NCBI RefSeq assembly: GCF_014217215.1
Contig: NZ_CP056080.1
Location: 186,001-250,000 of the forward strand
Source: Rothia nasimurium
GTDB lineage: Bacteria; Actinomycetota; Actinomycetes; Actinomycetales; Micrococcaceae
Direction of reading: 5' to 3'
DNA: 64,000 nt
Shown here: piece after piece, positions 1,673 to 13,521 of the stretch
Layout of the letters: each line of letters starts with the position of its first letter
Numbering within the stretch: position 1 is the first letter of the stretch
Translations under genes and position numbers: made by a program
The notes under the pieces: generated by a model
The model's database searches: none
Told to the model about the DNA's origin: nothing
What the model saw: only the letters and a program-made list of their open reading frames with translations

Positions 1673-1766
1673 GCTATGCTCTAGAGCTTATAAGGCTTAG
1701 GCAACCGGGGCACTTCAGTTTGCCAATTACGCGAAACTCACCAACAACTAGCTCAATGCTTGTTCG

Positions 1767-1801
1767 AATAGGCCGCACTCATGTCGCGGGTGCGGTCTAT
1801 T
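1767..1801 (-). terminator. hairpin downstream of erm(X), possible terminator
   Basis: AATAGGCCGCAC (1767-1778) pairs with GTGCGGTCTATT (1790-1801) with one mismatch. It lies about 125 bases past the erm(X) stop. There is no long T run, so its terminator role is tentative. Confidence 0.4.
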
Positions 1802-1926
1802 GTCGAGAACATGAGCTTCCTTACCGAGTACAACGCTGCCCGCGAGTTGTCCGTGATTGATGCGTCTGCGGCCAGACTTCGCTTACCTTTTAGTACTACT
1901 GGTGCAATTCGGTTTTGGTGGGGGGA

Positions 1927-2781
1927 TTAACGCCGCCGGCTTCGGTTTTTCCGTTGAGGAGGTCGTTGACTACTTCCCGATGGTGAAATTGGTCGATGGT
2001 GCGGTGAAGAGGAACCAGTCACCTGGAAGAGATCGATCCAGTCGCTGGTGTGCAATCTGGGAGGTAGGGTCGCAGGGTCGATTCCTCGCGAGTGCAACCA
2101 TGATTGTGTTTCTGAACGTGATGAAAACAACCCTGCCCTTCGGAGAATTTCCCTTATCCCGCGTCCCCGGGCAGTGAAAACGGTGTGCACCATCGCCTGA
2201 AAGGCTTTGCGCTGCTCTATCGGAATCTTCGGGTCACCCACCCGGCGGATCACTAAGATCCCCCCGTCAACGTTTGGCTGTGGCCGGAAAGCAGACCTTG
2301 GTACCCGGGAACCCAGGTGAAATGTGAACCATGGGGACCACTGAGCCGTCATCATCGTGCTTGCGCCTACCCCAGCCCGGCGGCGAGCGACTTCCCACTG
2401 CATGAGGAGTACAGCGTCAGTCCATGCCGGCGCATGCAGCAACTTTCGAAGAATGGCAGTGGTGAGATGAAAGGGAATATTTCCCACAATGACGCAGGGA
2501 GTGGCGGGTAAACGGAAGTTAAGGAAATCATCATGGACCACTTCGACCGCCGCCGAGGAGGTTTCTTGTGTGAGTTTGGCAGCTAGTTTTGCGTCCACTT
2601 CAACTGCCGTTATTGCCCTCCCCAAGTAGGCCATCGGGTGAGTGAGGGCACCGCTTCCTGGTCCGATCTCAATGATGGGGCCGGAGGTTTGTTTTACAAG
2701 GTCGATGATGGAGTTGATGATCTTGTGGTCGGTGAGAAAATTTTGGCCATGTTCGTGACGGCCGTGTCCGTATGCAGACAT
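1927..2781 (-). CDS. erm(X): 23S rRNA adenine-N6 dimethyltransferase Erm(X)
   Basis: Erm(X) dimethylates A2058 of 23S rRNA and gives resistance to macrolides, lincosamides and streptogramin B. The 284-residue protein matches my memory of corynebacterial Erm(X) almost throughout. It starts MSAYGHGRHEHGQNFL, has the SAM-binding EIGPGSG at residues 38-44 and the catalytic NIPF at 101-104, and ends in a basic Arg/Lys/Ser tail. ATG 2781 is chosen over an upstream in-frame ATG because AAGGAG (complement of 2790-2795) sits eight bases before it. Expression should be inducible, since a leader peptide and attenuator precede it. The gene belongs to the accessory region, not the core genome. Confidence 0.97.
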   Translation of the reverse strand: MSAYGHGRHEHGQNFLTDHKIINSIIDLVKQTSGPIIEIGPGSGALTHPMAYLGRAITAVEVDAKLAAKLTQETSSAAVEVVHDDFLNFRLPATPCVIVGNIPFHLTTAILRKLLHAPAWTDAVLLMQWEVARRRAGVGASTMMTAQWSPWFTFHLGSRVPRSAFRPQPNVDGGILVIRRVGDPKIPIEQRKAFQAMVHTVFTARGRGIREILRRAGLFSSRSETQSWLHSRGIDPATLPPRLHTSDWIDLFQVTGSSSPHHRPISPSGSSQRPPQRKNRSRRR

Positions 2782-2890
2782 CAGGTGTGCTCCTTGGAGT
2801 TGAAAAGGAGCCGGGCATGACAAATGAACGCCCGGCTAAAGGACCGGAGTGGTTTTTAACCTACGGGGTAGGAAACCGCCTTAGCGGTTA
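2782..2890 (-). promoter_or_regulatory. erm(X) translational attenuator
   Basis: The leader mRNA holds competing stems. GCTCCTT/AAGGAGC (2805-2811 with 2789-2795) hides the erm(X) Shine-Dalgarno. AGCCGGGC/GCCCGGCT (2830-2837 with 2809-2816) competes for part of the same arm. The leader reading frame itself contains GCGGTT and AACCGC, and a further GCGGTT follows it, so the middle segment can pair on either side (ACCGCC/GGCGGT around 2874-2889). Stalling of a ribosome on the leader would re-order these stems and free the start site, as in known erm attenuators. Confidence 0.75.
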
Positions 2891-2928
2891 GAGCGCAACC
2901 GCAAGAAAGCGGTATCTGAAATCAACAT
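2881..2928 (-). CDS. Erm(X) leader peptide (15 aa)
   Basis: The short frame from ATG 2928 to TAA 2881 encodes MLISDTAFLRLRSNR, which closely matches the erm(X) leader peptide as I remember it. It contains Arg-Leu-Arg, the RLR motif at which macrolide-bound ribosomes stall. It lies 100 bases before erm(X). Its ATG follows a TATAAT box by only seven bases, so it is probably translated from a leaderless or nearly leaderless transcript. Confidence 0.88.
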   Translation of the reverse strand: MLISDTAFLRLRSNR

Positions 2929-2935
2929 GGGCCTA

Positions 2936-2941
2936 ATTATA
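2936..2941 (-). promoter_or_regulatory. -10 box of the erm(X) promoter
   Basis: A consensus TATAAT (minus strand) ends seven bases before the leader-peptide ATG. The -35 region is not clear. This places transcription start at about 2927-2931. Confidence 0.65.
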
Positions 2942-3142
2942 TCAATTTAATTTCGCGGGTGATACGCGGTGAAAAAGAAGACAACTGCGCCGCAACAGTG
3001 CAAGACATCTGCACCTGGACTGGAATTGTATTTGTCCTACCTTCGGCTCGTCGCGCCGCCACCGCTGGCGGATTTCGTCTCTGAGCAACGAGGGGGAGTT
3101 ACCCTACCTCCGAGCGTTTTTAAAGTACACCCCAACGGGGCA
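2942..3142. other. erm(X) upstream spacer, no gene seen
   Basis: Together with the region up to 3278, this is about 350 bases without a supported gene. A 79-codon frame from 2969 is open on the plus strand but is Pro/Cys-rich, has no ribosome binding site and resembles no family. The Tn402-like end starts at 3143. Confidence 0.4.
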
Positions 3143-3167
3143 TGTCATTTTCAGAAGACGTTTGCAC
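3143..3167 (+). repeat. Tn402/Tn5053-type terminal inverted repeat
   Basis: The segment begins TGTCATTTTCAGAAGACG and ends TGCAC at the 25th base. It differs from the 25-bp IRi/IRt end of class 1 integrons and Tn402, as I recall it, at two positions. The interior of the transposon lies to the right, where a tniA-like stub starts 136 bp away, the layout of the tni end of this family. The partner end was not found. Confidence 0.7.
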
Positions 3168-3278
3168 AGTCAGGATGGGATGGCCAGGCTTGTGAAATCG
3201 TCTATTGAACGCTGTCCGTTCACTACTCGCGTGCACTAAGCTGAAAATGTCAGAAGTCCTGTTCACAAGGAGACAGAG

Positions 3279-3410
3279 ATGGGCGAGGACCGAACTGAAA
3301 TCGCTGCTACGAGGCATCTCACGATGCCCGAGGCTGATTGGGAACAGGCCCGCCTACAGCAACGGGTAATCGCCAGGGTGGTGTTGCAAACTCCGGGAGA
3401 AGAGCCGTGA
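3279..3410 (+). pseudogene. 5' stub of a TniA-like (Tn402-family) transposase gene
   Basis: A 43-codon frame starts at ATG 3279 behind AAGGAG (3269-3274). Residues 16-27 (MPEADWEQARLQ) and the following VIA resemble the extreme N-terminus of TniA, which reads LPDEAWERARRRAEII in Tn402 from memory. After about 35 residues the resemblance ends and a stop follows, whereas TniA is over 550 residues long. The AT-rich lead-in before the ATG also resembles the tniA leader. I read this as the surviving tni end of a Tn402-like element joined to foreign DNA at about 3390-3410. Confidence 0.55.
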
Positions 3411-3429
3411 AGCCTCCTCGCGGTCATTT

Positions 3430-3476
3430 AACCCGTTCAACTGCCTCTGTCTAGTCTAGATGTAGTTGAACGGGTT
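3430..3476. terminator. 13-bp inverted repeat near the foreign block's left edge
   Basis: AACCCGTTCAACT (3430-3442) and AGTTGAACGGGTT (3464-3476) are perfectly complementary around a 21-base loop. The hairpin lies downstream of the tniA stub and of the minus-strand exporter operon. It may act as a terminator or mark an element end. Confidence 0.45.
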
Positions 3477-3629
3477 TGTGAACACCCACTCGGCGAAATG
3501 CTCGCGATCGGCTCCTCCGGACCACTGTTCACATCAACGACCGTTTGTTGAACGGCGGTGTGAGTCAGCCCCAGCCCTGCGACGCGACGAACCGTCTTGG
3601 GCGGCGGATGCGAGGCGCAGGCCTGCCCA

Positions 3630-4361
3630 TCACGCCGAGTCCCGTCGGACATGGGCACATAGCCCCGCGCCCGCCAGGCCGAGTGCCGGTACGAGAAGCG
3701 CGACGGCAGGAGGCCACACGGACATGCCTGCAGGGGCCTCCCCAAGTGCCTGGGCGAGGAGCATGTGGCTGGCGTTGAACGGCAGCCACGGCGTGATCGC
3801 CTCGAGCATCGGGACCATGGACGCGAGCTGTTCGATCAGGAGCATCCACGTGATCGGCGCGGCGACGGACACCGCGACGGAGCGCGTGAGGACGGCAAGC
3901 GCCGTCGCCATCGTCACCCACAGGAGAACGACGAGGAGATAGGCCGCGAGATAGGCCCACCCCCGCGGCGACATGGCCAGCCCGTCGGGATAGAACCTCG
4001 CCGCGACGAGTGCGAGGCCGATGCCGACGACGTACGCGAATGCGAGGAACGCCCACTGGACCGCTGCCTGTGCCACCAACGAGGCCCATCGACTCTTCTG
4101 CGTGAGGAAGGACAGCGCCGTCGACCCCGCATTGATCTCGGTCGCGGTGTGTGTGCCGGCGAACACGATGGCCAGCACATGGAAGATGCTCACGCACTTG
4201 CCCAGATCACCGGCGTCGATCGGCCCTCGATAGGCCGGGTCGTAGACGATGCCCATCAGGACGATGGGGCCGACGCAGCAGCCGATCAGCAGCGCAGCGA
4301 AGATGCCTGTGGAGCGCACGGTGAGCAGTCGGCGCACCTCAGCTGTCAATGCTCGTGTCAT
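3630..4361 (-). CDS. ABC-2 type permease of a BcrAB-like antibiotic exporter
   Basis: This 243-residue membrane protein has about six hydrophobic segments, the first at residues 17-40 after a short cytoplasmic start (MTRALTAEVRRLL). It is the size and type of the BcrB/ABC-2 permeases that pair with a separate ATPase to remove peptide antibiotics from the membrane. ATG 4361 overlaps the ATPase stop by ATGA, so the two are coupled. It is the last gene of a three-gene minus-strand operon (phosphatase, ATPase, permease). GC content and codon use are well above those of the core genes. The substrate is inferred from context. Confidence 0.75.
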   Translation of the reverse strand: MTRALTAEVRRLLTVRSTGIFAALLIGCCVGPIVLMGIVYDPAYRGPIDAGDLGKCVSIFHVLAIVFAGTHTATEINAGSTALSFLTQKSRWASLVAQAAVQWAFLAFAYVVGIGLALVAARFYPDGLAMSPRGWAYLAAYLLVVLLWVTMATALAVLTRSVAVSVAAPITWMLLIEQLASMVPMLEAITPWLPFNASHMLLAQALGEAPAGMSVWPPAVALLVPALGLAGAGLCAHVRRDSA

Positions 4362-5284
4362 CGCTCGGGCCTTTCTTTGCCATGTTCGGCTTCGGATGAT
4401 CGGTCGGTGAGGCGGAGGAATTCCTCTTCCAGCCGGATCGGCTTGTCCGTCAGGGCAGTGATGAGCACGTCGAGGTCTCGGCAGGTCCGCGAGAGCGTGA
4501 GCGCGTCGGGGACCGTCTCGTCGAATGTCACGCAGAGTCCCTCGGGCAGTGCGGTTACGGGGACCCGCAGTCCGCGCAGAGCCTGCTCGACGCGTTCGTC
4601 GTCGTCGGTGCGGAGGAGCGCTTGGCGGCTGCGCGCGTGCAGAAGATCGGCGACGTCCCACTGGCCGAGCAAGCGGCCGTTGTCGATGACGACGAGGCGG
4701 TCGGCGAGGGTCTCCATCTCGCCGAGCAGGTGGGAGGAGACAAGGACGGCGTGGCCGCTCGCGGCGGCATCGCGCAGGAAGGCGCGCATCCACTCCATCC
4801 CCTGCGGGTCGAGGCCATTCATCGGCTCGTCGAGGACGATGTTGCGCGGTCTGCCCAGCAGGGCGGCCGCGAGCCCCAGGCGCTGCTTCATCCCGAGCGA
4901 GTAGCCGCCGATCCTGCGATGAGCTGCCTGGGTCAACGCGACGGCCTCGAGTACCTCCCAGGCGCGGCGGTCGGGTAGGCCGGCAGAAGCAGCGATGGTC
5001 GTCAGGTGCGCCAGTCCGGTCCGGCCGGGGTGGAACCAGGAGGCGTCGAGGACGGCTCCGACGACCTCGGCCGGCCTCGTCTGGGCGGTCAGCGGGAGCC
5101 CGTCGATGAGCACGGTTCCGGTGGTGGGCTTGTGGAGCCCGAGGAGGCATCGCATGGTCGTGGACTTGCCGGCTCCGTTCGGGCCTAGGAACCCGGTGAT
5201 GGATCCGTCGGGGACCGTGAAGCTCAATCCTTCAACAACGGTCACCTGGCCGTAGCGCTTCGAGAGACGGTCGACCTCGATCAT
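4358..5284 (-). CDS. ABC transporter ATPase, BcrA-type
   Basis: The 308-residue ATPase shows Walker A GPNGAGKS (residues 34-41), a signature YSLGMKQRL, Walker B with NIVLDEP and an H-loop SSHLLGE. A C-terminal regulatory extension of about 90 residues is typical of drug- and peptide-export ATPases (BcrA/DrrA type). Start ATG 5284 overlaps the stop of the upstream phosphatase gene (ATGA at 5281-5284), and the stop overlaps the permease start. Position between a PAP2 phosphatase and a permease suggests export or removal of a lipid-II-cycle antibiotic such as bacitracin. Confidence 0.85.
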   Translation of the reverse strand: MIEVDRLSKRYGQVTVVEGLSFTVPDGSITGFLGPNGAGKSTTMRCLLGLHKPTTGTVLIDGLPLTAQTRPAEVVGAVLDASWFHPGRTGLAHLTTIAASAGLPDRRAWEVLEAVALTQAAHRRIGGYSLGMKQRLGLAAALLGRPRNIVLDEPMNGLDPQGMEWMRAFLRDAAASGHAVLVSSHLLGEMETLADRLVVIDNGRLLGQWDVADLLHARSRQALLRTDDDERVEQALRGLRVPVTALPEGLCVTFDETVPDALTLSRTCRDLDVLITALTDKPIRLEEEFLRLTDRSSEAEHGKERPER

Positions 5285-5991
5285 GCGCGCCCGCCCTGGG
5301 ACCGGCTGGCCGAATCCGGATGGCCGTCCCGTCCGCCAGTCAGACGCCGGTCCAGCACCGGCGACGCCGCGGCGACGACGGCCGCGACGACGAGGGCACC
5401 GAGCGCGAGACCGGAGAGCACGTCGTGGACGTAGTGGACTCCGGCGGCCACTCGAGAGGCGGCGATCGCCAGCGCGAGAGGCAACGCGAACCAGGCGAGG
5501 CGGGGGACGACGAGGATGCAGGCGGTGGCGAAGGCAGCGGCCAGGACGGCGTGATTCGACGGCCACGACCAGTCCCCGCTCCCGGGGCAGCTGAGCACAG
5601 TGGCAGTGTCGACGACGCTGCAGGGCCGCGGCTCCTCGACCAGCAGCTTGACGGCCTCGCTCAATCCGTAGGCCGTGATCACGCCGAGTCCAGCCAGCGC
5701 CAGGAGCCAGAACCGCCGGCGCTCGCGCAGCCAGCACCAGAGAGCGAGGATGCCGGCGGTCGCCACGAGGGCAAGCAGACCGAATTCGGCCACGGATCCC
5801 ACCGCCGAGGCCAGTGCCGAGCCCTCGGCGAGACCGGCGACAGCGGTGAAGAGGCGCTCACGCACCGGATACGTCGCGAGAGCGAGGGCAGCAAGAGCTG
5901 CGACGGCAATCAACAGCGCGGGCCATGGCACGGGGCGGGACGAGGATCTGCGCGACGTCGAAAGCGTGCGCGTCGAAGTTTCGTGAGTCAT
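5281..5991 (-). CDS. PAP2-family phosphatase, probable undecaprenyl-pyrophosphate phosphatase
   Basis: The 236-residue multi-spanning protein carries the PAP2 signature: K-x6-RP in KLLVEEPRP, PSNH (residues 144-147) and SR-x5-H-x3-D with H186 and D190. BcrC-type members recycle undecaprenyl pyrophosphate and so protect against bacitracin. ATG 5991 is preferred to ATG 6000 because a TATAGC -10 box on this strand ends at 6001, so transcription would start after 6000. It is the first gene of the operon and is divergent from a two-component system. It could instead act on another lipid phosphate. Confidence 0.8.
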   Translation of the reverse strand: MTHETSTRTLSTSRRSSSRPVPWPALLIAVAALAALALATYPVRERLFTAVAGLAEGSALASAVGSVAEFGLLALVATAGILALWCWLRERRRFWLLALAGLGVITAYGLSEAVKLLVEEPRPCSVVDTATVLSCPGSGDWSWPSNHAVLAAAFATACILVVPRLAWFALPLALAIAASRVAAGVHYVHDVLSGLALGALVVAAVVAAASPVLDRRLTGGRDGHPDSASRSQGGRA

Positions 5992-6000
5992 GAAATCCAT

Positions 6001-6006
6001 GCTATA
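6001..6006 (-). promoter_or_regulatory. -10 box for the phosphatase-ABC operon
   Basis: TATAGC on the minus strand lies nine bases before ATG 5991. The 143 bases between the two divergent genes (5992-6134) must hold both promoters and any site for the response regulator. I see no clear palindrome. Confidence 0.4.
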
Positions 6007-6121
6007 GACGCGGTTCGGCCTCAGAATCTGCCATGCGGGGCGACTCGTCTATGCCCACGGTCATACCGGCGAGGTGCTGCGCACGCCCGATCGAGGGAGG
6101 CGGCGAGCCCACGGTCCCCGG

Positions 6122-6127
6122 TAGAAT
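6122..6127 (+). promoter_or_regulatory. -10 box for the sensor kinase operon
   Basis: TAGAAT lies seven bases before ATG 6135, the arrangement of a leaderless actinobacterial transcript. This is why 6135 is taken as the kinase start. Confidence 0.55.
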
Positions 6128-6134
6128 GGAGCGC

Positions 6135-7526
6135 ATGACCCTAATTAATCGTCCGTCTGCGCGCCGGAGCGTCGACGCGCTAACGGCAATCGGTTTCGGG
6201 GTGCTGGCCTCCGCGCCGGAGCCGGGCCTCTTCATGGCCCTGCTCACCGGCATCGCCGCGATCGCAATCGGGCTCTGGTCCAGGGGTCCGCGCGCGGGCC
6301 TGGGAGGACTGGCAGTGCTGGTCGTCGTGAGCATGGCCCGGGCCACGTGGCTCGACGGGCACTGGCTCTACGTCGCGGAGGAGTTGCCCCCGGCGCTCAT
6401 GCGCGCTGGTGTGCCCTGGCTGATCGGTCTCGCCGTGCGCCAGTACATCGTCCTCGGGCGGAGGGCAGACCGCGAGCGAGAGCTGCGGCAGGTCCAGCGC
6501 CTGGCCGAGCTCAAGGAGCGCGCCACCGCCGACCGGCTCGCCCTCGCGCAGTCGCTGCACGACGACCTCGGCCACTCGTTGAGCCTCGTCGCGCTCAATC
6601 TCGGACGGCTCGAGATCGACCCGGCACTGCCCGAGAGCGCCCGCACCTCGCTCTTACACGCCCGCAACGACCTCGCCCACGCGGTCGAACGCCTGGGGGA
6701 CTCCGTCTCCGACCTCAGATCCGGCGCTCCCGTGCTGCCAATGGGCGCAGCATCTGTCGATGCACTGCTGGCCCGGGCCCGCGCAGCCGGTGCGCGCATC
6801 ACCGTGCAAGGACTGCCGGAACCCAGGCGGCTGCAGGACTTCGGAGGCGAGCAGGTCACGAGGGTCCTACAAGAAGCGATCACGAACGCAAGCAGGCACG
6901 CTCCCGGCACCCCGATCGACATCACCGCTGCCGACGTCGGTGCCGAGCTGCGTCTGAAGATTGAGAACGCCCTCGGCGAGACTCCTGCCGACGCGCACAC
7001 AGCGGGCACGGGCCTGAGCACTTTGGAAAGTGAGCTCCGCGCCCACGGCGGAGAACTCGCCGCGGAGAAGACGGACAGTGCGTTCGTCCTCTCTGCGGTC
7101 CTCCCGACTCGCCGTCAGGAGCAGAGCACGCACGATGATCGCGCTGTGGAGGCGACGAGAGACGTCGATGAGAGCTCGACCGGCAGAACGAAGCTCCGCC
7201 AGCGACTGATTCTCGCCTCGACCGCGGCGATCGTCGTCGTCGGGCTCGCAGCGGTCGAGGCGCTGACGGTGGTGCAGAACCACCGCGCGCTGCTGTCGGC
7301 AGGGGCCTTCTCAAGCATCAGCGTCGGAGACGCGCGGGCGGAGACCGAGCGGATCCTGCCCGGCCACGAGCTGCCGGCCAGGCGGGGCGAGAACCGACCG
7401 GACGACTGCCACGACTACGCCGTGACCGCGAACACCTTTGACGACGCTGCCGGGGACGTGTACCGGATCTGCTTCGCGCAGGACGAGGTCTCCAGCACCG
7501 AGTACATCGCAGGAGGACAACGATGA
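6135..7526 (+). CDS. sensor histidine kinase (HisKA_3 type) with a C-terminal membrane anchor and outer domain
   Basis: The 463-residue kinase starts with about four hydrophobic segments (residues 15-110). A HisKA_3 box follows (SLHDDLGHS, phospho-acceptor H142), then an HATPase with N-box EAITNASRH (N251) and a G-box around residues 290-300. Unusually, a linker leads to another membrane segment at about 358-380 and an outer domain of about 80 residues with two cysteines. Most kinases of this class end with the ATPase domain. It is coupled to a NarL-type regulator (ATGA overlap) and divergent from a phosphatase/ABC operon, so it probably senses cell-wall antibiotic stress. Confidence 0.85.
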   Translation: MTLINRPSARRSVDALTAIGFGVLASAPEPGLFMALLTGIAAIAIGLWSRGPRAGLGGLAVLVVVSMARATWLDGHWLYVAEELPPALMRAGVPWLIGLAVRQYIVLGRRADRERELRQVQRLAELKERATADRLALAQSLHDDLGHSLSLVALNLGRLEIDPALPESARTSLLHARNDLAHAVERLGDSVSDLRSGAPVLPMGAASVDALLARARAAGARITVQGLPEPRRLQDFGGEQVTRVLQEAITNASRHAPGTPIDITAADVGAELRLKIENALGETPADAHTAGTGLSTLESELRAHGGELAAEKTDSAFVLSAVLPTRRQEQSTHDDRAVEATRDVDESSTGRTKLRQRLILASTAAIVVVGLAAVEALTVVQNHRALLSAGAFSSISVGDARAETERILPGHELPARRGENRPDDCHDYAVTANTFDDAAGDVYRICFAQDEVSSTEYIAGGQR

Positions 7527-8188
7527 CAGCGACCGAGGCCCCGGTCAGAGTCCTGGTCGCCGACGACGACCCCCTCGTGAGGACCGGCATCGTCGGGATC
7601 CTCGACACCGATCCCGCCATCGAGGTCGTAGCCCAGGCCGCCGACGGAGCAGAGGCCCTGCGCAAGATCGACGCGCACCGTCTCGACGTCGCCCTCTTCG
7701 ACATCCAGATGCCCGGGATGAGCGGACTCGACGCGCTGCAACGGCTCCGCTCCGACGGGAGCGCGCTCCCCTGCCTGTTCGTCACCACGTTCGGGGAGGA
7801 CGACTACATCGCCGAGGCCATCCGGCTCGACGCAGACGGGTTTGTCCTCAAGTCCGGCGATCCGCGCCAGCTGATCGCCGGTGTGCACGCCGTCGCCGGT
7901 CGCGGAGCGTTCTTCTCGCCCTCGGTCGCCCGGCGTCTGCTCGACTCCGGCGTCTCGACGACGTACACCCAGTACGCGAGCGCCGTCGAACGCTTCGAAC
8001 GCCTCACGGCTCGCGAGCGAGAGATCCTGATCCGGCTCAGCCAAGGAGAGACGAACGCTGAGATCGCGAAAGCGCTGTACCTCGCTCCCGGCACCGTCAA
8101 GGTGCACGTTTCCGCGATCCTGCGGAAGACTGAAGCGCGCAACCGCGTAGAAGCAGCCCTCATCGCCCTTCGCGCCGGACGAGCCTAG
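7523..8188 (+). CDS. NarL/LuxR-family response regulator
   Basis: The 221-residue regulator has a receiver domain with acidic pocket ADDD (residues 13-16), phospho-acceptor D60 in LFDIQMPG and the conserved lysine in FVLKSG. A C-terminal LuxR-type helix-turn-helix follows (LTAREREILIRLSQGETN, then GTVKVHVS). Its ATG overlaps the kinase stop. It most likely activates the divergent phosphatase-ABC operon, which is an inference from gene order (LiaRS and BcrRS logic). Codon use matches the foreign block. Confidence 0.9.
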   Translation: MTATEAPVRVLVADDDPLVRTGIVGILDTDPAIEVVAQAADGAEALRKIDAHRLDVALFDIQMPGMSGLDALQRLRSDGSALPCLFVTTFGEDDYIAEAIRLDADGFVLKSGDPRQLIAGVHAVAGRGAFFSPSVARRLLDSGVSTTYTQYASAVERFERLTAREREILIRLSQGETNAEIAKALYLAPGTVKVHVSAILRKTEARNRVEAALIALRAGRA

Positions 8189-8398
8189 ATCTTCTCGGGA
8201 CGACGACGATCAGGCTTCGTCGTGCCGGAGCTTCGGAACGTCCGCGACGAGACCTTCGATGGTGTCTTCGGGGCGGAGACAAGCGCCGCGCAGAGGAGGT
8301 CGAAATCTGCCACGGCACCATTGTTCCCGAGTCGCGTCCGACCCTGCTCGCGCGGAGAAGGTCCCGGAGTAGATCTGGGGGCGTTCTTGTGGTCATTC
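8189..8398. other. gap between convergent genes
   Basis: There are 210 GC-rich bases between the response regulator and the lipoprotein gene. I see no strong hairpin and no recognisable coding sequence. A minus-strand frame through it is open but has Arg/Ser/Pro-rich composition typical of a shadow. Confidence 0.3.
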
Positions 8399-9016
8399 TC
8401 AGAAGACGAAGTCGGCGGCTGTCTCGCCGACCTCGGCGCACATCGAAGCGAAGTTGCTCGCCTCGATGTCGGTCCTGGACGTCGCAACGTCCGCGAAGTT
8501 CTTCAAAGTGTCCTCGGTGATCTCGACGCGTATCGATTCCGCCGCGACGTTCTCCAACGGCGACTTGCCGATCCACGTCGCCTCGAACGCTGCTCCATCG
8601 CCGCCGTCGACCCGCTCGAGGGTGGCGACGCCCTCGGACTTCGTCTGGCCGGCGCAGTTGACGATCCCGTAGGTGACCTCGCCCGCCTCCTCGTCGAGCA
8701 CCCAGCGCTCAAGCGCGGGCGAGAAGTTCTGGATCGCGCGGAGATACTGGACATGCCCGTCCTCGACGCCCAGGTCCGCGGTTGCGCCCGACTTCTCGCC
8801 CTGGCCGCCTTCCTCGGTGCTCTCGTCGCCGGTCTCCTCGGCCGGGGTCTCCGGCTCGGTAGGCTCGGTAGCCGGTTCCGAGGGGACTGGATCCTGCGCT
8901 TCGGCATGGAACGCGGCGCGGTCCTCGTCGTCGCCGGGGTAGCTGCACCCGCTGAGCGCGAGAGCAGCGGCGGCCAGCAGTGCTGCGCCGATGGTCGTGA
9001 TCGCCGCCTTCGTCAT
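8399..9016 (-). CDS. lipoprotein of unknown function
   Basis: The 205-residue product starts with a lipoprotein signal ending in a lipobox, LALSGC, at about residues 19-24. An acidic Pro/Glu/Thr-rich linker (about residues 35-75) leads to a globular domain of about 125 residues containing two cysteines (one in IVNCAGQ, one in SMCAEVG), which might form a disulfide. I do not recognise the domain. The ATG overlaps the stop of the upstream membrane-protein gene (ATGA at 9014-9018), so the two are one operon and probably act together at the cell surface. Confidence 0.7.
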   Translation of the reverse strand: MTKAAITTIGAALLAAAALALSGCSYPGDDEDRAAFHAEAQDPVPSEPATEPTEPETPAEETGDESTEEGGQGEKSGATADLGVEDGHVQYLRAIQNFSPALERWVLDEEAGEVTYGIVNCAGQTKSEGVATLERVDGGDGAAFEATWIGKSPLENVAAESIRVEITEDTLKNFADVATSRTDIEASNFASMCAEVGETAADFVF

Positions 9017-9555
9017 CAGACGTCACCCCTCTCGGCATCGGGCGTACCAGTGGTCGTCTTCACCTGGAGGCCCGACTTCGTCTTCATCTTCGAGACCAGG
9101 TTCGTGAACAGCTGCGGCGCGACGATGAAGGACGCGATGAGCGCCGAGGCGGCTCCGGCGATCCAGACGTTGCTGAAGATGCCGAGCGCCACCGAGAGTC
9201 CCCAGCGGAAGATCATGTAGCCGACGGTGAAGCCGAGCGCCAGCAGCGCCATCCGCCAGATGGGCGAGCGGCCCTGGAACTCGCGCCAGGCGGTCTTGAG
9301 CAGGCCGCGCGTCTCGCCGAAGTCCTTCCGGTTCTTCTCCGGGACGACGATCAGCCCCGCCTTGAGCATCATCGAGATGAGCTGCATGAAGAAGAAAAAC
9401 AGGCCGGTCGCAGCCAGGTCCAGGGCTCCGGCGTTGGAGATCGCCCAGGCGGCTATGCCGACAGCGCCGCAGGCGAGCAGGGTGCCCAGCACCGTCCAGG
9501 CGTGGTTCTCGGGGCCGCCGCGGTCGAGCTTGATGTTGATGTTCTGGTCGGACAT
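9016..9555 (-). CDS. four-helix membrane protein of unknown function
   Basis: The 179-residue product has a short polar start (MSDQNINIKLDRGG) and about four hydrophobic segments (residues about 20-38, 45-70, 105-125 and 130-150), then a basic tail. A GGTCC spacer and an upstream frame ending at 9561 precede ATG 9555. It is coupled to the lipoprotein gene downstream. No family is recognised. Because the operon sits on a mobile block, a role in element maintenance or surface defence is possible but not shown. Confidence 0.65.
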   Translation of the reverse strand: MSDQNINIKLDRGGPENHAWTVLGTLLACGAVGIAAWAISNAGALDLAATGLFFFFMQLISMMLKAGLIVVPEKNRKDFGETRGLLKTAWREFQGRSPIWRMALLALGFTVGYMIFRWGLSVALGIFSNVWIAGAASALIASFIVAPQLFTNLVSKMKTKSGLQVKTTTGTPDAERGDV

Positions 9556-9560
9556 GGTCC

Positions 9561-9671
9561 TCACTCCTTCGTCTCGTCCAGCTTCGCGGGGCCGGAGATG
9601 ATCTTGATGGCGTCGTTCGGCACGGGAGCGACGCTCTGCTGTGCCTCACCCGCCGTAGAGGAGGCCGACAA
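9561..9671 (-). CDS. possible 36-aa small protein (TTG start)
   Basis: A frame from TTG 9671 to TGA 9561 encodes MSASSTAGEAQQSV followed by a segment containing NDAIKIISGPAKLDE. Its stop lies five bases before the membrane-protein ATG, and it overlaps the end of the fragment at 9646-9741. The composition looks protein-like, but the start is weak. It may be a coupled small operon gene or a frame remnant. Confidence 0.3.
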   Translation of the reverse strand: MSASSTAGEAQQSVAPVPNDAIKIISGPAKLDETKE

Positions 9672-9741
9672 GCTGCTTCGCCATGTCCGCGGCGTCCGCC
9701 GCGATGAAAATCTCGTCATCGGTATCCAGAATCAACGCCAC
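9646..9741 (-). pseudogene. C-terminal fragment of an unknown gene, cut at the umuC junction
   Basis: This minus-strand frame of 31 codons reads [12 protein letters not shown], then AADAADMAKQ and LVGLLYGG before TGA. The frame stays open across the junction with umuC sequence at about 9750, so the visible part is probably the tail of a longer gene that lost its 5' end on integration. A GTG with AGGAG nine bases upstream would allow it to stand alone as a small peptide, but that AGGAG may belong to umuC sequence. The function is unknown. Confidence 0.4.
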
Positions 9742-9749
9742 GGTCTCTG

Positions 9750-9930
9750 AACTCCTGCTATGTATCTTGCGAGCGCATTCTTGATCCGTCCTTGCAAGGT
9801 AAGCCAGTTGTGGTGTTGTCGAATAATGATGGTTGCATTGTTGCTTTGTCGGCTGAGGCTAAGGCTTTGGGGTATGCGATGGGTGATCCGTGGTTTCAGA
9901 TTCGGGTGCGGGCTCGGGAGCAGGGTGATA
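9750..9930 (+). pseudogene. umuC fragment (Y-family DNA polymerase), cut at both ends
   Basis: One frame translates to [12 protein letters not shown], then [12 protein letters not shown] and [18 protein letters not shown], followed by RAREQGD. These are the hallmark N-terminal residues of UmuC translesion polymerases (positions about 10-65 of a roughly 420-residue protein). The left end joins the GC-rich foreign block at about 9750-9758. The right end is the IS3-family element at 9931. No start codon or later umuC sequence is found in the window, so the gene is destroyed. Base composition matches the host, not the foreign block. Confidence 0.85.
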
Positions 9931-9997
9931 TGTACTGGGTTTAGTTCCGCTCCCGTAAATTTAGAAACAAACAAAAAGAGCAAAGGAACCTTCACCC

Positions 9998-10315
9998 ATG
10001 CCCACCAAATACCCCGCCGAACTCAAAACACGAGCCCTACGCCTACTGACCGACCACCTGGAAAACAACCCCAACACAGGCATCTACACCGCCTGCCGAA
10101 ACATTGGAGAACGCCTCGGCATCGGCCCCGAAACCCTACGAAAATGGCACAAACAAGCCGCCATCGACCAAGGAGAAACCCCCGGGCCCACCAGCGATAT
10201 GGCAGCAGAAAACCGAAGACTTCGCAAAGAAATTGCTGAACTACGCAGAGCCAACGAAATCCTGAAAGCCGCTTCGGCTTTTTTCGCAGCCGAGCTCGAC
10301 CGTCCGGCCCGATGA
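9998..10315 (+). CDS. IS3-family OrfA (helix-turn-helix transposase subunit)
   Basis: This 105-residue protein has an HTH_Tnp_1-type N-terminal domain (TACRNIGERLGIGPETLRKWHKQ) and a leucine-zipper-like segment (ENRRLRKEIAELRRANEIL), ending near AASAFFAAELDR. The zipper lets OrfA and the fused OrfAB multimerise on the terminal repeats. The frame ends at TGA 10313-10315, overlapping OrfB. A slippery site at 10277-10285 allows fusion to OrfB. Confidence 0.9.
   Translation: MPTKYPAELKTRALRLLTDHLENNPNTGIYTACRNIGERLGIGPETLRKWHKQAAIDQGETPGPTSDMAAENRRLRKEIAELRRANEILKAASAFFAAELDRPAR
10277..10285 (+). promoter_or_regulatory. -1 frameshift site joining OrfA to OrfB
   Basis: GCTTTTTTC at 10277-10285 gives Ala-Phe-Phe in the OrfA frame. 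A -1 slip continues as ILKAASAFF followed by RSRARPSGPMMIRF, the usual OrfAB junction. An AAAGCC/GGCTTT hairpin (10265-10280) ends in the T run, so it resembles a terminator set at the slip site. Confidence 0.6.
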
Positions 10316-11211
10316 TGATCCGTTTCATTGATACCCATAAGGATCTCTTCGGGGTCGAGCCGATTTGCCGGACTCTCGCTGAGCATCTAGACGGTGGATT
10401 CATCACCTCACGTGGCTACCGAGCAGCAAAAGCCCGCGTGCCAGCAGCTAGAACACTCAGTGACCAGTTGCTGATCCCCGAGCTTCTGAGAATCCACCAG
10501 GAAAACTACGGAGTCTACGGGGTGCGCAAGATGTGGCAAGCCATGAGACGAGCAGGCTGGGCTATCGGCCGGGATCAGACCTACCGGCTCATGCGTGCTG
10601 CTGGTATCCAGGGGGTACACCGGGGTCGTAAACCGGTGACTACCAGGGCTACCAAGGCTCCTGATAACCGCCCTGACCTCGTCAACCGCCAGTTCACCTC
10701 TGATGCCCCACATCGCCTGTGGGTAGCAGATTTCACCTATGTTCGTACCACCAGCGGCTTCTGCTATACCGCTTTCATCACTGATGTCTTCAGCCGGAAG
10801 ATTGTCGGTTGGGGTGTTTCCTCAACCATGCATACACTCGGGATGCCTTTGACGGCTTTGAAGCAGGCTCTTTTCGATGCTCGTAAGTGTGGGTCTGTTT
10901 TGACTGAGATTGTGCATCATTCTGACCGTGGGGCCCAGTACGTGGCTGAGGATTACACGCGTGAGCTTCGGGGCCTGGGTGTGCAACTGTCAGTTGGGTC
11001 AAGGGGCGATTCGTACGATAATGCTTTGGCTGAGTCGGTTAACGGTGCGTATAAGGCAGAGCTTGTGCGTGGCCGGTTCTTTGAGTCTGTTGCTCAGTTG
11101 GAGGTTGAGACGGCGGGTTGGGTGTGTTGGTGGAATGAGCAGCGGTTGCATTCGTCCCTTGGTTATCGGACTCCGCAGGAGGTGGTGGATGGTGTTGTGA
11201 GTCTCGTATGA
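10312..11211 (+). CDS. IS3-family OrfB, DDE integrase domain
   Basis: The 299-residue catalytic subunit has an HTH_21 region (HQENYGVYGVRKMWQAMRR, about residues 61-79) and an rve integrase core. The DDE acids lie in WVADFTYV, HHSDRGAQY and NALAESVNG. It ends in the HSSLGYRTPQE motif common to the IS3 family. The frame lies -1 relative to OrfA, and in vivo it is probably made as an OrfAB fusion. The coding sequence is intact and should be functional. Confidence 0.92.
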   Translation: MMIRFIDTHKDLFGVEPICRTLAEHLDGGFITSRGYRAAKARVPAARTLSDQLLIPELLRIHQENYGVYGVRKMWQAMRRAGWAIGRDQTYRLMRAAGIQGVHRGRKPVTTRATKAPDNRPDLVNRQFTSDAPHRLWVADFTYVRTTSGFCYTAFITDVFSRKIVGWGVSSTMHTLGMPLTALKQALFDARKCGSVLTEIVHHSDRGAQYVAEDYTRELRGLGVQLSVGSRGDSYDNALAESVNGAYKAELVRGRFFESVAQLEVETAGWVCWWNEQRLHSSLGYRTPQEVVDGVVSLV

Positions 11212-11234: not shown

Positions 11235-11911
11235 TATCAGTGCTAACCCTCACCCAAGCCCTCAAAATCACCCTGCTCTACCACCGCCACAACCTCACCG
11301 AAGAACTCCTCGCAGAACTTTTTGCTGTCTCTCAATCGACAGTCTCACGAGCTATCAACACCATCGAAAAGGCCCTGGAGAAGATTCTCACTCCGCTGAT
11401 TCAGCCTTTGAAAGAAAGCCTCAAAGTACCAGGATCTTTGGTCATCGATGGGCCCCTGATACCCACGTGGAATTGGCGTTCACTTGGTAAAACAAATTTC
11501 TCTGGAAAGCACAAACGAGCCGGATTCAACCACCAAGTCATCTGCACCCTCGATGGCAGACTCCTAGCCATCACTGACCCGTTGCCTGGGGCTAGGCATG
11601 ATGCATATGCCTTCAAGGTTCACGGGCTAGATCAGCTGCTGGATTCCTCGACTCTGGCTGATAAGGGCTATGTGGGTCTGGGGTTGGCTACCCCGGCCAG
11701 GCGTAAGCCGGGCCAACGGCTGAGCCGGGAGCAGAAGCTGAATAATCGGGTGCTGAATCGGCTACGGTCGGTGGTGGAGCGGGTTATCGCTCACATCAAG
11801 ACTTGGCGGATTCTTCATACGGGGTTTAGGCGGCCGTTGGGGTTGTATGGGCGGGTGTTTGCGGTGGTGCGGGGGTTGGTGTTTTTGGCTGGGGGTGGGA
11901 CTTTTGAATAA
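11235..11911 (+). pseudogene. IS5-family (DDE_Tnp_4) transposase, N-terminus lost
   Basis: The frame carries a helix-turn-helix (NLTEELLAELFAVSQSTVSRAI), then the DDE core with acids in VIDGPLIPTW, PGARHDA or ADKGYVG, and VVERVIAHIKTW, as in ISL2/IS427-type IS5 transposases. About 35-40 N-terminal residues and the left inverted repeat are missing because the IS3 element abuts at 11234. A GTG at 11240 is only an internal codon. The frame stays open to TAA 11911, so the loss looks recent. The element is immobile in cis. Confidence 0.85.
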
Positions 11912-12213: not shown

Positions 12214-13353
12214 TTAGGCAACCAGGGCCTCGGTAGCTTCAGCGATAGCCTTTTCCTCGTTGGTGGGAACGACCAGCACGGGGATAGCTGAGTCCTCGGT
12301 GGAGATGATGCGGGGCTCGTCGCCGCGTACCTTGTTGGCTTCGGCGTCCAGCTTGATGCCCAGGGCGCCCAGGCGCTCAACAGTCAGCTGGCGGAACTGG
12401 TGGGAGTTCTCACCAATACCTGCGGTGAAGACCAGGGCCTTAGCGCCACCAACAGCTACATGGTAGGCGCCAATGTACTTAGCCAGGCGGTAGGAGGTCA
12501 TGTCCAGGGCTAGCTTGGCGCGCTCGTCCCCAGCTTCCATAGCCTCAACCACAGCACGCATGTCGTTGTTGCCAGCGATAGCGAGCAGGCCGGACTCCTT
12601 GTTCAGCAGGGAGTCCATCTTGGCGGGGGTCATTTCGGGGTCGCGCATCATGATGGAGGTCAGCACGGAGGGGTCGATGTCGCCGGAGCGGGTACCCATG
12701 ACCAGGCCAGCCAGGGGGGTGTAGCCCATGGAGGTATCGAGGCACTTGCCGCCCTGGACGGCGGTGATGGAGGCGCCATTACCCAGGTGGGCGATCACGC
12801 CGTTAAAGTCGGAGCGGTCCAGGCCCAGGAAGTCAGCGGCAATGCCGGTGACGTAGTCGTGGCTAGTGCCGTGGAAGCCGTAGCGGCGCACGCCGTACTT
12901 CTCAACCAGTTCTTCGGGCACAGCGTAGCGGTAGACGTGCTCGGGCATGGTGCCGTGGAAGGCGGTGTCGAATACGGCAACCATGGGGACGCCGGGGTAG
13001 GTTTCCTGGGCAGCTTTCAGGCCGAGGACGTGGGCGGGGTTATGCAGGGGGGCTAGGGGGGAGAGCTCGTCAATCTTGGCGATGACGTCGTCGGTGACCA
13101 GAACGGGCTCTGAGAAGATATCGCCGCCCTGAACGATGCGGTGGCCGATAGCGTCGATGGTCTTGCCGTGCAGGGGTTCTTCCAGAGCCTTAGCCATGAT
13201 GTCGAGGGCTTCGGTGTGGGTGGGAATCTCGGCGGAGCCGATGTTCTCGACCAGGCCCTTAGCGATGACCTGGTTCTCTTCGCCGGTAGCGGTGGTGTCA
13301 CGTACCTGGTACTTCACAGATGAGGAGCCGCAGTTAATAACGAGTACGAGCAT
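12214..13353 (-). CDS. ackA: acetate kinase
   Basis: AckA interconverts acetyl phosphate plus ADP and acetate plus ATP, the ATP-forming step of acetate overflow. The 379-residue protein has the signature VLVINCGSSSVKY at its start, RIVQGG, the GFHGTSHDYV catalytic segment, and GTRSGDIDP. Length is close to the usual 390-400. ATG 13353 is chosen because homology begins there, and a weak purine-rich site (AAGGAAAA on the minus strand) precedes it. It lies 168 bases downstream of pta, and the two are probably co-transcribed. Confidence 0.97.
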   Translation of the reverse strand: MLVLVINCGSSSVKYQVRDTTATGEENQVIAKGLVENIGSAEIPTHTEALDIMAKALEEPLHGKTIDAIGHRIVQGGDIFSEPVLVTDDVIAKIDELSPLAPLHNPAHVLGLKAAQETYPGVPMVAVFDTAFHGTMPEHVYRYAVPEELVEKYGVRRYGFHGTSHDYVTGIAADFLGLDRSDFNGVIAHLGNGASITAVQGGKCLDTSMGYTPLAGLVMGTRSGDIDPSVLTSIMMRDPEMTPAKMDSLLNKESGLLAIAGNNDMRAVVEAMEAGDERAKLALDMTSYRLAKYIGAYHVAVGGAKALVFTAGIGENSHQFRQLTVERLGALGIKLDAEANKVRGDEPRIISTEDSAIPVLVVPTNEEKAIAEATEALVA

Positions 13354-13521
13354 GAAAGTGTTTTCCTTTAGTTGCTTAGTGAGTGAGGTGGGGCACGGAC
13401 GCCCGCGCCTAGGGCGCAGGGGAGTCCGCTGTGCCCCTAGGTTTCGCGGCGGAGGGGATGTACCCGGTTCCGCCAACCCAACCCCGCGCGTCCGGCTGAC
13501 CGTCCGCGCGTCCGCGTCCTA

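Follow-up and report, generated by a model that had tools for sequence, protein, structure and literature searches.

A mobile five-gene block with a conserved operator in Rothia nasimurium and other Actinobacteria, predicted to defend the cell envelope

Results

In a 64,000-nucleotide stretch of Rothia nasimurium DNA (contig NZ_CP056080.1, positions 186,001 to 250,000; hereafter the window), we analysed a block at 3630-8188 that consists of five intact open reading frames (ORFs) for a PAP2 phosphatase, an ABC ATPase, a permease, a sensor histidine kinase and a response regulator. We consider it somewhat probable that the block is a mobile actinobacterial module, complete in itself, that defends the cell envelope by acting on the lipid-II/undecaprenyl cycle. 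The gene set, its coupling, its mobility, and a conserved operator with fixed promoter geometry are visible in the sequence itself.

Gene content and coupling of the block

The effector genes form one coupled minus-strand operon in the order PAP2-ATPase-permease, divergent from the kinase-regulator pair on the plus strand, and neighbouring genes overlap by 4 base pairs (bp; 4358-4361, 5281-5284 and 7523-7526). This arrangement was proposed in an earlier note on the same DNA and is borne out here: all five ORFs are open, and every product matched a domain model save the permease, which was recognised by hydropathy (Table 1). For the kinase, the longest ORF starts at 6033 and the public annotation of plasmid pLEW279a starts at the equivalent of 6126; we set the start at 6135 because a -10-like hexamer occupies 6122-6127.

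The three catalytic motifs of the PAP2 protein (KLLVEEPRP, PSNH and SRVAAGVHYVHD, by the usual motif definitions) are intact, and two of its cysteines are invariant across 12 of 12 aligned sequences. It scored 54.4 bits with the SepP model (cut-off 250) and also matched LpxE, PgpB and undecaprenyl-phosphatase models. The best NCBIfam subfamily of the ATPase was lantibiotic protection (galliderm_ABC, 174.1 bits, cut-off 309.75), and its top PDB matches were ABCA-type lipid transporters. At E≤1e-3 the permease had no match among Pfam and NCBIfam models, and relaxing the Pfam threshold to E≤0.05 added none; nor did a PDB search that included a profile find a relative. The label "ABC permease" is thus based on hydropathy and coupling to the ABC ATPase. 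The PDB relatives of the regulator were NarL, VraR and DevR.

Table 1 Features of the block and its surroundings (window coordinates).
Feature	Position	Strand	Characteristics
ABC permease	3630..4361	-	243 amino acids; several predicted membrane helices; no Pfam/NCBIfam model
ABC ATPase	4358..5284	-	308 amino acids; ABC_tran E 1.7e-26
PAP2 phosphatase	5281..5991	-	PF01569 E 3.1e-21
-10-like TAGCAT of effector operon	5999..6004	-	exactly 45 nucleotides (nt) from operator; ATG 7 nt further
Predicted operator, imperfect 7-2-7 palindrome TATGCCC-AC-GGTCATA	6050..6065	.	conservation; predicted regulator site
-10-like TAGAAT of kinase gene	6122..6127	+	7 nt before ATG at 6135; leaderless mRNA predicted
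Sensor histidine kinase	6135..7526	+	HisKA_3 E 4e-8; N-terminal helices, C-terminal helix and tail with 2 Cys
Kinase C-terminal helix and putative sensory tail domain	7188..7523	+	hydropathy, alignment
NarL/LuxR-type response regulator	7523..8188	+	Response_reg E 4e-28, plus GerE
erm(X)	1927..2781	-	on segment common to pLEW279a
Putative lipoprotein	8399..9016	-	accompanies module in most copies, not L056 or L120; probably passenger
Membrane protein	9016..9564	-	accompanies module in most copies, not L056 or L120; probably passenger

Mobility and selection

We searched a collection of 72,556 plasmid records and scanned genome contigs for further copies. Five plasmid records matched window 2900-10000, two of which (pLEW279a and pUMB2355A_1) hold most of it. 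Counting the window, the block occurs in ten copies; the nine others (the two plasmids and seven genome loci, named Propionibacteriaceae, Corynebacterium (2), Microbacterium, Nesterenkonia, Brachybacterium and Brevibacterium) have kinases 90-100% identical. All five genes are whole in six of the ten (window, L006, L050, L051, L052 and L055); L007 has all five with interrupted frames, and L053, L054 and L056 end at contig ends. Within the host genus, the best kinase match in the other 34 genomes searched was partial, generic and 28% identical (E 1.2e-13). The guanine-plus-cytosine (GC) content of block 3436-9748 is 67.9%, compared with 62.3% for 12200-64000. These results support the view that the module is foreign and mobile across Actinobacteria, in agreement with the earlier description of a foreign, GC-rich block. 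Nor did the genomes searched show the outcome that the earlier note had set against its own reading, homologues that are a fixed part of the core genome and have some other known function: in a same-order sample of 396 genomes (four first-look candidates scored in each), a kinase match at E≤1e-30 was found in at least seven, counting the host's own.

The claim that the block travels beside erm(X) holds in part. Plasmid pLEW279a repeats window 1718-9748, with an arsenic gene set inserted, and erm(X) adjoins two of the ten copies, those of the window and pLEW279a; the corresponding flank is visible and free of erm(X) in L007, L050 and L055, and lies beyond the contig end in L051-L054 and L056. 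The source of pLEW279a was poultry litter and that of pUMB2355A_1 human urine, and two contig names also indicate a poultry origin. One of these plasmids carries erm(X) and tet(33), the other aph(3')-Ia, and the module is missing from the predicted resistance genes that either record lists. Brachybacterium sp. EE-P12 was isolated from an anaerobic digester, and "chicken manure" is among the keywords of its report (PMC6288415). Furthermore, pLEW279a is named in PMC6794481, whose excerpt concerns its integron and tetracycline regions; our searches of the open-licence PubMed Central (PMC) literature showed no description of this module.

Four of the genes are under purifying selection. Between the window and L054, the ratio of nonsynonymous to synonymous substitution rates (dN/dS, compared without L053) was 0.18 for the permease, 0.27 for the ATPase, 0.21 for PAP2 and 0.38 for the kinase, the regulator being absent from the L054 contig.

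Two of the copies have surroundings of their own. In L055 (Brachybacterium sp. EE-P12) a MobC mobilisation gene (197-856) and an AbiV-type gene (12579-13427) flank the module, so that it is probably within a mobile element there too. Plasmid pUMB2355A_1 contains two module copies in opposite orientation (L007 6763-8152, L126 11723-16280), with mobF and aph(3')-Ia also double; both copies have a broken kinase frame, and one has a broken ATPase frame. Either a genuine duplication or an assembly artefact could explain the doubling.

Conserved operator and promoter geometry

We scored candidate operator words over 14 positions against TATGACC-NN-GGTCATA. The operator recurs in four relatives that are 37-61% identical in the kinase (L057 13/14, L120 12/14, L122 13/14, L058 11/14), in every case 79-85 nt before the kinase start, and is kept in L054 and L055. 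The next-best same-strand word at the locus scored at most 10 in L057, L120 and L122, while L058 has one other word at 11. When six genomes were scanned with the degenerate pattern, exact matches were found in four, each only at the module; G853 and G198 have none because their module sites deviate further. The operator-bearing kinases together with L121 formed one clade (FastTree support 0.998; the tree excluded L007 and L125, and L123 duplicates L055).

On the effector side, a TAxxxT hexamer lies exactly 45 nt from the operator in 7 of 7 aligned promoters from five lineages (window, L054 and L055 being one lineage), with an ATG 7-8 nt later. The hexamers are TAGCAT in the window, TAGAGT in L054, TATCGT in L120, TAGGGT in L057, and TAGCGT in L055, L122 and L058. 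Over 75 positions scanned, a TA-xx-G-[TC] word occurs solely at 45 nt in L057, L058, L120 and L122; the window has such a word at 43 and TAGCAT at 45. This geometry suggests a dedicated activator site approximately 65 bp upstream of a predicted leaderless effector transcript. Taken together, the conserved operator and the fixed 45-nt spacing lead us to predict that the regulator very probably activates the PAP2-ABC operon from that site.

C-terminal tail of the kinase

Beyond its ATPase domain the kinase has a membrane helix (residues 358-376 by hydropathy) followed by an 86-residue tail, in keeping with the earlier suggestion that it differs from the Firmicutes kinases. From a search of 394 class genomes, in most of which four first-look candidates were scored, we chose 35 relatives (L057-L091), preferring matches that reached the query end, and 20 controls (L092-L111) whose matches end before the tail. 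The tail was present in 33 of the 35 relatives (absent from L084 and L085), a count that is partly a selection effect because the picking preferred full-length matches. Two cysteines were found in the tails of the 32 relatives examined, save for L074, which has three. Across 33 aligned tails, window included, G47, P58, C74 and C95 are invariant (alignment A1, which omits L084, L085 and L082, where the tail is present in a long read-on frame). The controls are not clean, as three of the 20 (L092, L093 and L095) have the C-terminal helix, and the tail profile also matches beside the L092 kinase.

With up to 22 first-look candidates scored per genome, the tail profile matched at least 20 of 197 class genomes at E≤1e-3, of which 18 reached E≤1e-10; the host genome (G000) was the sole match from the host's order. 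The tail had no PDB relative (best E 5.6). In Pfam, the 33 members gave only scattered weak matches, including RcsF (0.073) and BamE (0.12), which we judged to be chance. The topology recalls that of Streptomyces AbsA1, for which an excerpt of PMC9739842 reports N-terminal helices and one C-terminal helix with the C-terminal part outside; the comparison is by reported topology, and the outer position of the tail is predicted.

Variable effectors behind the operator

Relative L120 holds a complete five-gene module in the same gene order on a 6.0-Mb contig, with proteins 61-77% identical. The window permease is 67% identical to that of L120 and 55% to that of L057. Behind the operator, L057 has the ATPase and permease with PAP2 undetected, L058 and L122 have PAP2 but lack this ABC pair, and the window and L120 have both. 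That the site may be followed by PAP2, by the ABC genes or by both fits a single shared stress, the simplest being one on the lipid-II/undecaprenyl-pyrophosphate cycle. Furthermore, PAP2 was found within approximately 8 kb in 10 of 35 relatives, against 1 of 20 controls (one-sided Fisher p 0.034, or 0.008 without L099, a control truncated within the kinase by its contig end, which branches with L067/L075), counts that are not independent since the PAP2-bearing relatives apart from L058 fall in about three clades. Some relatives' stretches are short (L081 and L087).

A further feature was seen in L057 at approximately 9503-9580, where PAP2 would be: the promoter ATG opens a leaderless frame of about 25 codons that overlaps the ATPase start.

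Discussion

Proposed mechanism and its weighing

In the mechanism that we infer, which extends to regulator binding, signal, substrates, drug and resistance, the kinase, probably via its C-terminal extracytoplasmic tail, would detect interference with the lipid-II/undecaprenyl cycle, be it an antibiotic or a stalled intermediate, and phosphorylate the NarL-type regulator. The regulator would then bind the 7-2-7 palindrome at 6050-6065 and activate the weak promoter of the PAP2-ATPase-permease operon, which has its -10-like box 45 nt away. PAP2 would convert undecaprenyl pyrophosphate back to undecaprenyl phosphate, and a peptide antibiotic would be cleared from the membrane by the ABC pair, as in bcrABC. 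Bacitracin, which is used in poultry, is the simplest candidate drug; nisin-like peptides or lipopeptides would fit equally.

Several observations weigh against this interpretation. The ATPase and PAP2 are both under the curated NCBIfam cut-offs of the undecaprenyl-diphosphatase and lantibiotic-protection models, and the PAP2 substrate is not readable from sequence. A BcrA-type ATPase was not significantly enriched near the kinase relatives (10/35 against 3/20 controls, p 0.21), and we rejected it as a family mark. The palindrome taken alone is weak (three window matches at two or fewer mismatches against 0.58 expected, equalled by 3 of 100 shuffles), so support for the operator rests on its conservation. 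Words scoring 11-12 occur elsewhere, at +14 in L074, +198 in L087, +7630 in L091 and -312 in control L094, and a scan of the remaining distant relatives and controls found no operator at a consistent position. Within the operator clade, no word in the 18-kb stretch of L121 scores higher than 10/14, and L121 lacks a close regulator. One-mismatch words lie at four other places in the host genome, compared with three for the reversed control pattern. We noticed the 45-nt rule with its hexamer once the promoters were aligned and had not predicted it. Finally, dN/dS exceeded 1 for the regulator against L055 and for PAP2 against L050, in copies 98-100% identical with very few changes.

The same effectors might instead serve envelope-lipid homeostasis, PAP2 acting on phosphatidate, phosphatidylglycerophosphate or a decaprenyl-linked phosphate and the ABC pair moving a lipid, with no resistance involved. 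The LpxE and PgpB matches of PAP2, besides those to undecaprenyl-phosphatase models, and the ABCA-type lipid transporters among the best PDB matches of the ATPase would suit such a role; we nevertheless regard it as unlikely, as plasmids that also bear erm(X), tet(33) or aph(3')-Ia have recently spread the module horizontally, a pattern that suggests selection under certain conditions and not a housekeeping role. Still less probable is an immunity module for a bacteriocin or lantibiotic of the same cell or an ancestor, in which the kinase would sense the cell's own product and the ABC pair would export it. The ATPase is indeed nearest to a lantibiotic-protection model, though under its cut-off, and AbsA1, of similar topology, is linked to an antibiotic cluster in the excerpt of PMC9739842. 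No obvious biosynthetic cluster was seen, however, around L057, L058, L060, L120 and L122 in gene lists read by eye without domain searches, and none is annotated beside the block on pLEW279a or pUMB2355A_1. The module might also be a hitch-hiker without present effect, carried along on plasmids for which selection acts on erm(X) and further genes. The broken frames of pUMB2355A_1 (the kinase in both copies, the ATPase in one) are in favour of this; purifying selection relative to L054, the copies in L007, L050 and L055 with no erm(X) in the visible flank, and the operator kept in L054 and L055 make it highly improbable.

Returning to envelope defence, a bolder version is possible, and we lean against it as a whole: that the tail is an undescribed, disulphide-held extracytoplasmic sensor of the lipid-II cycle, that it marks a class of one-operator actinobacterial modules with interchangeable effectors, and that one of these is a mobile, uncatalogued resistance determinant spreading in Actinobacteria, poultry-associated ones included. 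If envelope defence is the function, actinobacteria would own a counterpart of the bcr and lia systems that has another type of kinase and a precise operator open to direct testing, and an unlisted resistance system would already reside on plasmids with known resistance genes. Given the fixed operator-promoter geometry, a reporter screen for cell-wall drugs that induce the operon would be easy.

Surroundings of the block

The likeness of L056 to the window stops at 8183, about where the regulator gene ends, which suggests that the two genes downstream are probably passengers. At the left edge of the part common to several copies (boundary 3436) lies a 47-bp imperfect palindrome (3430-3476). 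A stretch of approximately 130 bp (3125-3256), single in the window, matches either side of the arsenic insertion in pLEW279a; such flanking repeats suggest insertion or loss of the arsenic set by recombination between them. To the left of erm(X), a gene for a ParE-type toxin, which has a small partner upstream, occupies 1098-1609. On the other side, IS3-type (9998-11211) and IS5-type (11240-11911) transposase genes lie between the block and an acetate-kinase-like gene, the IS5-like element being 80% identical to a Rothia amarae plasmid gene. Elsewhere on the host chromosome (C1, approximately 2425071-2425489; L002, L003), DNA 71-73% identical to part of the window ATPase gene probably belongs to a resident ABC ATPase gene.

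Comparison with known systems

The best-known meeting point of PAP2 and ABC functions is the lipid-II/undecaprenyl-pyrophosphate cycle, as in bcrABC, which with BacRS forms the Bacillus licheniformis system. That system shares with the module a single ABC ATPase, a single permease, a PAP2-type phosphatase and two-component control, and the window indeed holds the bcrABC-type gene set of a motif-intact PAP2 beside one ABC ATPase and one permease. The module is set apart by description through its NarL-type regulator, the C-terminal tail of its kinase, the order PAP2-ATPase-permease and its actinobacterial distribution. The bcrABDR system of enterococci and clostridia follows a similar logic of a mobile ABC transporter with an undecaprenyl-pyrophosphate phosphatase, but has a UppP-type phosphatase and a one-component regulator where the module has PAP2 and a two-component pair.

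LiaFSR/VraSR resembles the module in its HisKA_3 kinase and NarL/LuxR regulator, VraR being among the top PDB relatives of the regulator. Its locus includes a LiaF-like gene and its kinase has no C-terminal outer domain, whereas the module kinase has a C-terminal helix and tail, and no LiaF was found among the Pfam matches of seven block proteins. LanFEG immunity systems pair one ATPase with two permeases, unlike the window operon, with one permease gene, and L120, in which one was found. BceRS-BceAB has a large FtsX-type permease and an OmpR-type regulator; the module permease is 243 amino acids without a Pfam match and its regulator is of the GerE/LuxR (NarL) type. The likeness there is a two-component pair coupled to an ABC transporter, the pair sensing antimicrobial peptides according to the excerpt of PMC9020739.

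AbsA1/AbsA2 of Streptomyces coelicolor would be similar in the N-terminal helices and C-terminal helix of its kinase (for ours, predicted by hydropathy); it controls antibiotic production, and the excerpt of PMC9739842 mentions no PAP2-ABC operon for it. For AbrA1/A2 (SCO1744/45), the source excerpts mention no PAP2, and the role of its transporter is not settled there. The features tested set the module apart from the Bce, Lia and LanFEG systems; by analogy, we infer that it works like bcrABC joined to a two-component switch.

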